A stretch of 55,367 nucleotides of DNA from assembly GCF_021209385.1 (NCBI RefSeq), contig NZ_JAJOIL010000019.1:1-55367 (forward strand), read 5' to 3'. Both the position numbers and the translations under genes were made by a program. Positions within the stretch are counted from its first letter, which is position 1, and the number at the start of each line of letters is the position of its first letter. This document shows, piece after piece, positions 34,577-38,647 of this stretch. The notes beneath the pieces were generated by a model that saw only the letters and a list, made by a program, of their open reading frames with translations, made no database searches and was not told where the DNA came from. The stretch is from Seleniivibrio sp. (lineage in GTDB: Bacteria > Chrysiogenota > Deferribacteres > Deferribacterales > Geovibrionaceae).

Positions 34577-34726
34577 GTTTCCTCCTTGTTAAGGAGGGAG
34601 GAGGGTTATGTTTTACTGCCGGTTATTGCTAAGTCTAAATATAAGACCGTCCTTTCATGTGTCAATGATTTGTTTTATGCGAAAAATTAGTGTAGTATGT
34701 GTGCCTCGTATGAAAGGAGAAAGACT

Positions 34727-36281
34727 CTGGACGGACTTACACTCACCAAAGCGGTGAACACTATAAAACAGCGATACGAAGGCGTTCAGGTGACAAAAAT
34801 AAATGTCACCGAGGACAGCCTTACCATAGGACTTTTCGCACCTGACAGAAAGAGCCTCCATGTGCGCACCACAGGCGGCGCACCGGCTCTATTCACAACT
34901 GACGTGCAGGAAGGCGTTCCCGATCCGTTTCTGGACAGGCTGTCCGGCGGAAAGATTGTAGAAATAGGCGGAAGAAGATACGACCGTCTTTTCTGGCTGA
35001 ATATAGAAAAACGCAGACCCAGCGGAAAGATGGAGACCCACAGGCTGATATTCGAGCTGATAGGCAAGATGGCTAACGCCGCACTTGTAAACGAGAACGG
35101 AAACATCATCTGGCTGTTCGCGAAGAACAACGCAGACCCCGACAGAAGCTTTTCAGTGGGCGAAAGATACTCCGCACCGAGGCTCAACAAGCGCGACACA
35201 CTTGAAAAATATGCCACCGCAAATTTTGCAGACCTTCTTGGTTTTTACCCCGTTACAGTGAAGCACGCGGAAACGTATCTTGCAAACGGGTACAGCTTTG
35301 CAGAGACCGCTACGCTCATAAACGAAAGCCTGACCGACGGGATCTTCCACACGGACGCACAGGGGCGCGTAATCCCTTTTAAACCTTACGAAGACGGCGG
35401 AACCATCGGCATAGACGACCTGAAAGACAGGCTGTACAAAGCGACCATCAAAAAAGACGACGGCATCCGTTTGCGCCTGACGCGTTTTTTTTGAAAAACA
35501 GGCGGAAAAATACCTTACCCTGAAAGATAAGCTGAAAGAAGAATATGCCGAAGCGGAAACTTTTCCGAAGGTACGGGCAAAAGCCGACCTTCTGAAAAGC
35601 AATCTGCATCTGCTTAAAAAAGGAAAAGGCAGGATAGAGCTGGCAAACTATACCGCTGACGGCATCGAAACCATTCCTTTCGACATACCTGAGCTTTTTG
35701 ATGCCAACAAAGAGGTGAACAGACTGTATCGCCGTGCGGACAAGCTGGAGCGCTCGGTCGCCCTTCTGACATCGCGAATCGGCGAGGTTGACAACATGAT
35801 AGATTCCGCGCTGGAACAGCTTTACTACATAGAAATTTCGGCGAAAGAGGACGAGCTTCGGGAGCTTGCCCTTGAGATGAAAAAATCCGAGCCGAAACAG
35901 AAGAGGCAGATAAAAGAGAAACAGTTCATGCGGCTTGAAATCGGCGGCGGAACGGCATACATAGGGCGAAACTCCGTGAGCAACCACAGGCTGGTTTTCC
36001 AGTTCGCAAACCCCGACGACATATGGTTCCATGCGCAGAGGATACCCTCCGCGCACCTAGTCTTCCGCAAAAGCGGCGGCATAACACAGGACGAAGCGGA
36101 GCAATGCGCCGCAATCGTCGCGGGAATGAGCAAGGCGAAACTGAATCTCAAAGTAACCGTTGACTATACACAGAAAAAAAACGTAAAAAAGCCTAAGAAC
36201 ACGCCGCCCGGCTTTGTTATTTACCACAGATTCCGGTCGGTTACCGTAACACCCGTTCATATTGACGAAAACACTGATTGA
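34727..36281 (+). pseudogene. rqcH: RqcH/NFACT family protein, frameshifted
   Basis: An NFACT protein binds obstructed 50S subunits carrying peptidyl-tRNA and adds alanine tails (RqcH). The first part (DGLTLTKAVNTIKQRYEGV to about residue 255) is the NFACT-N domain. The frame stops at TGA 35492-35494 just after a run of eight T (35485-35492). With seven T it continues as RFFEKQAEKYLTLKDKL, then the coiled coil and the C-terminal NFACT-R domain (LVFQFANPDDIWFHAQRIPSAHLV) to 36281, about 518 residues in all. So one T is extra: sequence error, real mutation or slippage. The start may be the CTG at 34727, since AGGAG lies 8 nt upstream and homologues begin near this point. Confidence 0.85.
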
Positions 36282-36306: not shown

Positions 36307-36615
36307 ATGGAAAGAATGGAAGCACTCAGGAAAAAAGCTATTTTTCAGGCGGCACGCCGCGCTATACTGGAAAATGAGATGTTCCTTCGTGATTATGTCA
36401 CAAATCACCTGCCAGAAAGCTACACAGAGGAAGACCTTGAAAACTTCATTGAAATGCTGGTCAGGATGTTCGACAACGATCTGTTCGACCTTGTGATGGG
36501 CGTTAAATCTGCGGAAGATTTGAAAGACCTCTATGATTACAGATTTACAAAGGATATTCAGGACTTCGCGGAACAGCGCCGTACGGAAATCAAAAAAGCG
36601 AAAGGTCTTATATAA
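36307..36615 (+). CDS. SdhE/YgfY-like flavinylation factor homologue
   Basis: 102 residues, helical. AARRAILENEMFLRDYVTNHLPESYTEE aligns with the SdhE (SDHAF2) helix pair ACRRGMRELDLLLLPF, and FIEMLVRMFDNDLFDLVMG with its FIRLLECDDPDLFNWLM. SdhE promotes FAD attachment to succinate dehydrogenase and fumarate reductase. The key Gly of the RGxxE motif is Ala here, so function may differ. No sdh or frd genes nearby. AGACACAC precedes the ATG. It lies in a run of plus-strand genes with rqcH upstream. Confidence 0.6.
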   Translation: MERMEALRKKAIFQAARRAILENEMFLRDYVTNHLPESYTEEDLENFIEMLVRMFDNDLFDLVMGVKSAEDLKDLYDYRFTKDIQDFAEQRRTEIKKAKGLI

Positions 36616-36616
36616 C

Positions 36617-36919
36617 ATGAGCGAAAGATGGATGGCTGTTTTTGAAGATATGACATGGTACGACGCAAAGCTGGACTGCGAAGGCGACGCCTGCGAACTT
36701 TATATCTATAACAAAAAACAGAAAATTAAGACAAAAAAGATGAAAGAGAACGGGTTCACAAAGGTTATCCGCCTTCAGGACAGAATGAGCGGCGACACCA
36801 TCGACCTTGTGGATTTCAACGAGATGGACAGGTTCTTTGAACAGAATATGGTTATCTTTAAAAACAGACAGGGTCTGCACAGAGAAGTACGCAGATACAT
36901 AGATTTCAGTCTTAAATAA
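36617..36919 (+). CDS. Hypothetical protein, 100 residues
   Basis: Starts 1 bp after the SdhE-like stop. Mixed alpha/beta, acidic at first (FEDMTWYDAKLDCEGDACELYIYN), then KKQKIKTKKMKENG and a C-terminal helix (FKNRQGLHREVRRYIDFSLK). Two cysteines. I do not recognise it. The tight spacing (stop TAA overlaps the next ATG by one base) suggests it belongs to an operon with the SdhE-like gene and the double-cubane protein. Confidence 0.7.
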   Translation: MSERWMAVFEDMTWYDAKLDCEGDACELYIYNKKQKIKTKKMKENGFTKVIRLQDRMSGDTIDLVDFNEMDRFFEQNMVIFKNRQGLHREVRRYIDFSLK

Positions 36920-37908
36920 TGTCAAAAGTAGGATTCACAACAACAATTCCTGTGGAGATCGTTCTGGCGGCGGGCAAAATACCCGTTGACCTGAACAACG
37001 TCTTCATCACAGACCACGACCCCATAAAAATGGCGGAAGAAGCGGAGGATGAGGGTCTGCCCCGCAACCTCTGCGCATGGATAAAAGGCATCTACACCGC
37101 CGTTAAAAAGGCGGAAATTGACGAGGTTGTCGCCGTTACGCAGGGGGATTGCAGCAATTCCCACGCTCTGGCGGAGCTTTTCATATCAGCAGGTATAAAG
37201 GTTCATTCGTTCAGCTATCCCTTTGAAAAAGAAAGCAGATACGATCAGCTTAAAACAGAGATGGAGCGCTTTGCAAAATCTGTCGGAACCACTCTGGAAA
37301 GCGCAGTGGAATATTCAAAATATACTGACCCAGTGAGGGATAAACTGCGGAAACTGGACAGAATGACAGTGGAAGGTCATGTATCCGGTTTCGAGAATCA
37401 CCTCTGGCTGGTAAGCTCCACAGACTTTAACACCAGCCTGTCAGCATATGAAAAAGACCTCGACGATTTCCTCTCCATGACCGAAGGCAGATTCCTTGAA
37501 AAAGACGGACTGCGCATAGGCTTCATAGGCGTTCCGACGATATTCTCCGACATCTACCAGTTCGTCGAATCCAAAGGCGCGCGGGTGGTATTCAACGAAA
37601 TACAGCGCCAATTCGCTATCCCGTCAAACGATCCGGACTACGTTCAGCGCTACGTCGACTACACATACCCTTACGACGTTTTCGGCAGGGTTGAGGACAT
37701 ACAGAAAGCTGTGGATGAACGCAGACTGGACGGCATAGTCCACTATGTTCAGTCGTTCTGCTACCGCCAGATGCAGGACATCACCATACGCAAGAATATC
37801 AAATGCCCTATCCTCACCATCGAGGGAGACGCACCGGGCGGCATAGACGCACGCACTAAAATACGCATAGAATCATTCCTTGAGATGCTTGTGGCGAGGA
37901 AACAATGA
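36919..37908 (+). CDS. 2-hydroxyacyl-CoA dehydratase D-family / double-cubane cluster protein-like
   Basis: 329 residues, HgdB/BcrC fold (COG1775). The likely cluster ligands are Cys in RNLCAWIKG, TQGDCSNSH and SFCYRQMQD. There is only one such subunit and no CoA-dehydratase partner or CoA-transferase gene, unlike true dehydratases. The single-subunit plus activator arrangement matches double-cubane cluster proteins, which carry an [8Fe-9S] centre and reduce small molecules at very low potential (family knowledge). The natural substrate is not known. Start overlaps the previous stop; the activator gene overlaps its end. Confidence 0.8.
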   Translation: MSKVGFTTTIPVEIVLAAGKIPVDLNNVFITDHDPIKMAEEAEDEGLPRNLCAWIKGIYTAVKKAEIDEVVAVTQGDCSNSHALAELFISAGIKVHSFSYPFEKESRYDQLKTEMERFAKSVGTTLESAVEYSKYTDPVRDKLRKLDRMTVEGHVSGFENHLWLVSSTDFNTSLSAYEKDLDDFLSMTEGRFLEKDGLRIGFIGVPTIFSDIYQFVESKGARVVFNEIQRQFAIPSNDPDYVQRYVDYTYPYDVFGRVEDIQKAVDERRLDGIVHYVQSFCYRQMQDITIRKNIKCPILTIEGDAPGGIDARTKIRIESFLEMLVARKQ

Positions 37909-38647
37909 AACTCGGCATAGACCTTGGCAGCAGATTCGTAAAAATAGCAGTACAAAACGGCGAAAACATCGAATTTCACCGTGAAGATACAGTATTTTTC
38001 TATAAAAACCGTGTAAAACGTGAAAACGGGACGGTAAATATCGACCTTTCGGCATACGGAGCAGACAGAAACACCGTCATAACCGCAACAGGCTACGGGC
38101 GGAACATGCTGAGTTTTGCAAACGCAAACGTGATATCCGAAATAAAGGCGCACTATCAGGGCGCTCTGCGCTCCACAGGCGAAGACGAGTTCATCCTTGT
38201 GGACGTAGGCGGGCAGGACAGCAAGGTCATCTATGTGAAAGACGGCTATATTGAAGATTTCGTTATGAACGACAAATGCGCCGCCAGCACTGGCAGATTC
38301 CTAGAAAACGCCTGCCGCATACTGGACATCAGCCTTGCGGAACTGGCGGAGATGACCGAAAATCCCGTTAAGCTGAACTCCACCTGTGCAGTGTTCTCCG
38401 AAAGCGAGCTTGTGGGCAAGATAGCCGAAGGCGTGCGACAGAGCAGATAGGCGCAGGGGTGAACGAAAGCATCGCCCGCAGACTTTTCCCGCTGATACGC
38501 AAGTACCGGCACAAAAAGCTTTATGCCGCCGGCGGCGTCGCGGAAAACAGAGGACTTATCCGCCTGCTTTCAGACATGGCAGAGAGCGAAATATCTGTCA
38601 TAAAAAACCCGCAGTTCAACGGCTGCTTCGGGTGTTTATACTATTAA
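37905..38647 (+). pseudogene. ATP-dependent activator (HgdC/BadF/DCCP-R family), frameshifted
   Basis: Family members are homodimeric ASKHA ATPases with one [4Fe-4S] cluster that deliver electrons to the adjacent dehydratase-like protein. Visible: GIDLGSRFVKIAVQ phosphate loop, VDVGGQDSKVI, and the two cluster cysteines in NDKCAASTGRFLE and STCAVFSESELVG. The frame ends at TAG 38448-38450. Adding one base near 38433-38436 restores ATEQIGAGVNESIARRLFPL, AAGGVAENRG and the C-terminus at 38647, giving about 248 residues, the usual length. A single missing base, so error or real mutation. Confidence 0.82.

Follow-up and report, generated by a model that had tools for sequence, protein, structure and literature searches.

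A lone three-cysteine HGD-D protein and its activase as a candidate ATP-dependent preQ0 reductase of anaerobic bacteria

Our analysis of a 55,367-nt stretch of Seleniivibrio sp. DNA (contig NZ_JAJOIL010000019.1; hereafter the window) suggests that a lone HGD-D family protein (HGD3) and its activase constitute an ATP-dependent preQ0 reductase that replaces QueF non-orthologously, a reading to which we assign, from comparative sequence data, a probability of about 0.6. On a broader scale, it seems somewhat more probable than its opposite that a widespread third arrangement of the superfamily, comprising a lone subunit with a three-Cys cluster and a dedicated ATP-driven activase, serves anaerobes as their preQ0 reductase and converts the nitrile to the amine without NADPH or QueF. 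The underlying observations are the family membership of HGD3, its three-Cys pattern, the loss of the distal cluster ligands, its position in a clade of its own, its pairing with an activase, its operon links to que genes, and the exclusion of QueF from the genomes that carry it.

A lone HGD-D subunit and its activase

The host genome (G000; phylum Deferribacterota; 2.9 Mb, 42 contigs, 96.6% complete), whose closest named relative is Seleniivibrio woodruffii, contains, in a whole-genome profile search, one HGD-D gene (PF06050) and one BcrAD_BadFG gene (PF01869). The preliminary description had proposed a single HgdB-like subunit served by one ATP-dependent activator, with no second subunit, and both points hold genome-wide. 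The activase gene lies directly downstream of the HGD3 gene and overlaps it by 4 bases. The features of the locus are as follows.

34697..36281, + strand: RqcH/NFACT gene, frameshifted by an additional T at 35484 (T8 run); a neighbour only
36307..36615, + strand: SdhE/Sdh5 family protein (Pfam PF03937, 39.5 bits, cut-off 27); neighbour only
36617..36919, + strand: 100-residue protein, familyless; overlaps the HGD3 start by one base
36919..37908, + strand: HGD3, HGD-D family protein (PF06050 match), 329 aa, three invariant Cys; predicted single-cluster catalytic subunit
36988..36999, + strand: DLNN (HGD3 24-27), invariant; in the alignment, position of the distal-cluster Cys of DCCP GLC
37072..37074, + strand: HGD3 Cys52 codon, predicted cluster ligand, invariant; aligns with DCCP PRNLC
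37150..37152, + strand: HGD3 Cys78 (GDC) codon, predicted cluster ligand, invariant; aligns with DCCP TC
37594..37614, + strand: NEIQRQF (HGD3 226-232), nearly invariant; in the alignment, position of the distal-cluster Cys of DCCP EE(S/T)C
37663..37674, + strand: TYPY (HGD3 249-252), invariant; in the alignment, position of the distal-cluster Cys of DCCP NC(A/S)
37759..37761, + strand: HGD3 Cys281 (SFC) codon, predicted cluster ligand, invariant; aligns with DCCP FC
37905..38647, + strand (pieces 37905-38450 and 38459-38647): cognate activase, frameshifted in this assembly (TIGR00241, congener alignment)
38277..38279, + strand: activase Cys125 (NDKCAASTG) codon, likely bridging-cluster ligand; motif present in the Deferribacterota activases compared and in Ilyobacter
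38385..38387, + strand: activase Cys161 (STCAVFSESE) codon, likely bridging-cluster ligand; motif present in the same activases

HGD3 belongs to the HGD-D superfamily (Pfam PF06050, 114.6 bits, cut-off 28.4), has a dN/dS of 0.05-0.11 against its congeners, and yields an AF2 model (pLDDT 93.5) that Foldseek aligns with HadBC, DCCP, BzdNO, and MbdON at TM 0.7-0.8. Residues C52, C78, and C281 are the sole conserved Cys in 103 aligned HGD3 copies (near-duplicates included) and the sole invariant Cys columns in a 57-member alignment. The [8Fe-9S] double-cubane cluster has six Cys ligands (PMC11971306); the three positions that provide the distal sub-cluster ligands in DCCP are N, E, and Y in HGD3, and the published description of BzdO and BzdN, together with our alignment, implies that the three retained Cys would be the proximal set. 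In BzdO, loss of the distal sub-cluster opens room for the substrate (PMC11971306), and by analogy the DLNN, NEIQRQF, and TYPY motifs should line the substrate site of HGD3.

The preliminary description had assigned HGD3 to the double-cubane type, an identity that now appears extremely improbable. In its favour, the NCBI double-cubane model NF040772 is the best NCBIfam match and HGD3 has an activator. HGD3 shares with DCCP (PDB 6ENO/7YYL) the HGD-D fold (TM 0.74-0.77), the three proximal Cys, a separate ATP-dependent activator, and a single HGD-D gene without a second subunit. However, HGD3 reaches 63.9 bits with this model against a cut-off of 350 (six DCCP-type control proteins reach 467-518 bits in the same search), is 329 aa rather than about 420 aa in length, and has lost three of the six ligand Cys, the distal positions being replaced in every homologue. 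In our tree, HGD3 sequences form one clade (support 100, stem 2.26) outside DCCP (support 92) and outside the dehydratase and benzoyl-CoA-reductase groups. HGD3 does not fall among true two-subunit dehydratases with a partner elsewhere in the genome, the result that would have contradicted the preliminary description, and a role as one half of a 2-hydroxyacyl-CoA dehydratase or benzoyl-CoA reductase is scarcely credible. Such a role would accord with the HGD-D fold and with three Cys as in BzdO and HadB, but HGD3 is the only HGD-D gene in its own genome, in nearly all the Deferribacterota that carry it, and in five genomes of other phyla (G014, G022, G029, G036, and G039), three of which (G014, G022, and G039) also have a single activase.

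Individual members of these groups show the same mixture of likeness and difference. HadBC with its activase HadI (PDB 3O3M) resembles HGD3 in fold, in having a single three-Cys [4Fe-4S]-type site in each subunit, and in activase family, but needs two different subunits, whereas HGD3 is alone in its genome. The class I benzoyl-CoA reductases BzdNO and MbdON (PDB 8S02, 9G87) share the fold and the BzdO-like three-Cys site, but use two subunits with one double-cubane cluster, a two-subunit activator, and an aromatic CoA substrate; in the host genome, the NCBIfam bzd/bcr models stay below their cut-offs and no BcrB/BzdO plus BcrC/BzdN pair is found. The thiouridine desulfidase TudS is a distant fold relative with a three-Cys cluster and a nucleotide substrate (PMC11971306), but has one domain, lacks an activase, and is not a redox enzyme.

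The activase belongs to the acyl-CoA dehydratase activases: its 5' piece passes TIGR00241 (139.1 bits, cut-off 125.4; 27 bits for the 3' piece), and both Cys motifs are conserved, with Cys125 and Cys161 presumed to be ligands from what is known of the family. The HGD3-adjacent activases of Deferribacterota, clostridia, Chloroflexota, and others, including that of the window, form one clade (support 99), which also takes in one non-adjacent activase from Latescibacterota; a second clade (support 85) is made up of the lone activases from Cloacimonadota and Armatimonadota.

The activator gene proposed in the preliminary description is thus present, but not as one open frame. The reading frame is broken by one missing base in a CC run at about 38434, the downstream piece lying in another frame, while the gene is intact at 247 aa in four aligned congeners. 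Among about 36 genes compared over the window, the only other broken one is RqcH/NFACT, the sole NFACT gene of its genome, in which one T is inserted in the T8 run and whose copies in the congeners are intact. Both changes sit in homopolymers, and we interpret them either as errors of the assembly or as mutations of very recent origin. Specifically, dN/dS of the activase is 0.03-0.10 on both sides of the frameshift, a strong constraint that matches the congeners and points to a recent break or an error in the assembly.

Other activase architectures were seen in related genomes. Many Deferribacterota encode large proteins (about 1000-1500 aa) in which the activase domain occurs twice; the host genome has none of these. 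At six loci of anammox and other Planctomycetota (L104, L106, L107, L111, L116, and L021), an activase and an HGD-D domain are fused in one protein of about 640 aa, whose gene adjoins that of an HGD-D protein of 447 aa; this unassigned pair would be an activase plus two-subunit system in two genes.

Association with queuosine genes and exclusion of QueF

The base preQ1 is inserted into tRNA by Tgt on the way to queuosine. The current account gives QueF alone for the step from preQ0 to preQ1 (PMC11130926), and the open-licence papers we searched name no alternative preQ0 reductase or replacement for QueF.

Genes of the que set adjoin HGD3 in at least three lineages. Ilyobacter polytropus, the only relative found in an annotated plasmid record, has the operon HGD3-activase-queD-queE-folE-queC, which spans the genes from GTP to preQ0 and lacks queF; its HGD3 belongs fully to the family, with the three Cys and all motifs present. 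The order HGD3-queA-tgt is found at two loci (L078 and L061), and queE lies within about 110 bp upstream of HGD3 at three (L016, L046, and L063), these contacts with queE or queA-tgt coming from Armatimonadota and two unclassified genomes. Over some 1.0 Mb of flanking DNA from outside the Deferribacterota, no queA, tgt, queC, queD, or queE match occurs other than these, and all of them touch HGD3. Within the Deferribacterota, a weak QueE-like match lies about 6 kb from HGD3 at one locus (L100). A preQ1 riboswitch was found at none of the HGD3 loci searched.

A replacement of QueF by HGD3 predicts that the two do not occur together, and in the genomes searched they do not. In Deferribacterota, QueF (PF14489) is present in none of 40 genomes with HGD3 and in 5 of 11 without it (G042, G043, G044, G079, and G080). 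Fisher's test gives p = 2e-4 when genomes are counted, 1e-3 for genera, and 0.07 for families, the exclusion within the phylum reflecting few independent switches. In other phyla, QueF is above its cut-off in 0 of 64 HGD3 genomes, a set chosen for having HGD3 and containing no matched HGD3-negative anaerobes, which brings the total to 0 of 104 carriers. Weak matches below the cut-off proved on checking to be FolE, which shares its fold with QueF, and the same search passes its cut-off in 7 of 14 control genomes.

The remainder of the pathway was followed with a combined query that lists matches to about E 1e-11 and scores at most 12 candidates per genome, such that a divergent QueC may be missed. 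QueA and Tgt are present in 40 of 40 genomes tested, indicating that all can use preQ1. QueC is among the matches listed in 27 genomes: 25 with HGD3 and without QueF, and 2 with QueF and without HGD3. Each thus has exactly one of the two, and HGD3 accompanies the other pathway genes in genomes that lack QueF. In particular, the host genome has an intact QueC, QueA, Tgt, and QueD, and a search for QueF (PF14489) in it found none.

Genomes with neither HGD3 nor QueF (G045, G046, G064, and G001) have no QueC among the matches listed. In G001, HGD3 and the activase are cleanly gone, QueF is not found, and QueC appears neither in the 1.84 of 3.22 Mb read directly nor among the matches listed. In its sister G003 (locus L098), the 100-residue gene is interrupted by a premature stop, as are HGD3 and the activase, the trio being in joint decay, and QueC is again not among the matches listed. 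Both losses fit the replacement of QueF by HGD3; G001 could have contradicted it and did not.

Predicted reaction and alternative functions

We predict that HGD3, as an oxygen-sensitive iron-sulfur enzyme, would reduce the nitrile of 7-cyano-7-deazaguanine (preQ0) to the aminomethyl group of preQ1, at a cost of four electrons and four protons per preQ0. The activase, as a putative homodimer with a bridging [4Fe-4S] cluster, would take electrons from ferredoxin, and ATP hydrolysis would drive them singly onto the cluster of HGD3, itself a predicted homodimer with a single three-Cys [4Fe-4S] cluster. The substrate would occupy the cavity that in DCCP holds the second sub-cluster, lined by the DLNN, NEIQRQF, and TYPY motifs. 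QueF, the NADPH-dependent preQ0 reductase, would share with HGD3 the reaction and the place in the pathway, but is an unrelated T-fold protein without Fe-S cluster, ATP, or activator. In favour of such chemistry, DCCP, a relative of HGD3, reduces acetylene, azide, and hydrazine (PMC11971306).

Several considerations count against a preQ0 reductase. The reaction would be costly, spending ATP on what QueF runs on NADPH; in most phyla, HGD3 sits next to housekeeping genes of unrelated function (murI, rph, ABC-F, and enolase); no preQ1 riboswitch turned up at the loci searched; and the host assembly combines a frameshifted activase with an intact QueC. In addition, QueC is not among the matches listed in 6 of 22 HGD3 genomes of other phyla or in G002, which has an intact HGD3 and for which preQ0 salvage and a divergent QueC are the alternatives.

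The varied neighbours could also be read in favour of a general reductase, a single-cluster relative of DCCP that acts on a small or CoA-bound molecule, with the que links due to chance and the absence of QueF due to lineage. This reading, which we regard as unlikely, draws further on the fold and activase type common to dehydratases and DCCP and on the several losses of HGD3 in one family. It does not account for the absence of QueF from every carrier across many phyla; que genes lie beside HGD3 in separate lineages, and no CoA-linked gene occurs among the conserved neighbours. A role at another queuosine step, most plausibly as a third epoxyqueuosine reductase in place of QueG or QueH, would account for the same operon links to queA-tgt and queC-D-E, and most HGD3 genomes have no strong QueG among the matches listed; we nevertheless consider it decidedly unlikely. 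Two genomes (G016 and G019) combine HGD3 with a strong QueG (161-189 bits), and three QueF-bearing genomes that lack HGD3 (G042, G044, and G080) have no strong QueG among the matches listed, indicating that HGD3 is no simple stand-in for QueG. Moreover, exclusivity with HGD3 is seen for QueF.

If HGD3 and its activase do reduce preQ0, they would supply a missing step of queuosine synthesis in many phyla of anaerobes (Deferribacterota, anammox and other Planctomycetota, Cloacimonadota, Armatimonadota, Chloroflexota, clostridia, and Fusobacteriota), and genomes scored as lacking QueF could be full queuosine makers. The pair would also give an HgdB-like protein that stands alone with its activase a first physiological role and would be, to our knowledge, the first known case in which this ATP-driven electron machinery has a nucleobase and a nitrile as its target. 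For the evolution of the superfamily, it would place a single-cluster, single-gene lineage beside the double-cubane proteins, which have been described as the archetype (PMC11971306).

Distribution and neighbouring genes

HGD3 is present in 40 of 51 Deferribacterota genomes, where it and its cognate activase co-occur almost always; no homologue was found in phages or viral contigs. The two small upstream genes, which the preliminary description had noted as linked, do not share this distribution. SdhE adjoins HGD3 only within its own family and was rejected as a part of the system on that ground. The 100-residue gene is confined to 25 of the 51 Deferribacterota genomes and is conserved chiefly in five families of the order; its AF2 model (pLDDT 88) has no significant match in the PDB. 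It was likewise rejected, since G001 keeps an intact copy, together with SdhE, without HGD3 or the activase, although all three carry stops in G003. Both neighbours are lineage-specific, and neither defines the system.

Inspection by eye identified an MTA-nucleosidase-like gene adjoining HGD3 at two Planctomycetota loci (L039 and L040) and mtnA-like genes near it at five Cloacimonadota loci (L030, L053, L056, L057, and L075). A link to methionine salvage through these and MTA/SAH-deaminase-like genes was considered and set aside, as the association is seen in some Cloacimonadota and Planctomycetota and does not recur elsewhere. A link to selenium metabolism was also considered: one paper lists, for Slackia, genes of the HGD-D and activase families close to Sec genes.

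Similar 185-aa proteins are encoded near HGD3 at two loci, directly before queE in one (L046:8652-9209) and as the +3 gene in the other (L066), and are possibly another queuosine-linked family. In the window, the A+T-rich segment 38678-40231, between the activase and an MFS gene, holds an orphan ORF of 263 aa and the gene of a DUF4365 protein; the congeners have other genes or none at this position, which looks like a variable insertion spot.
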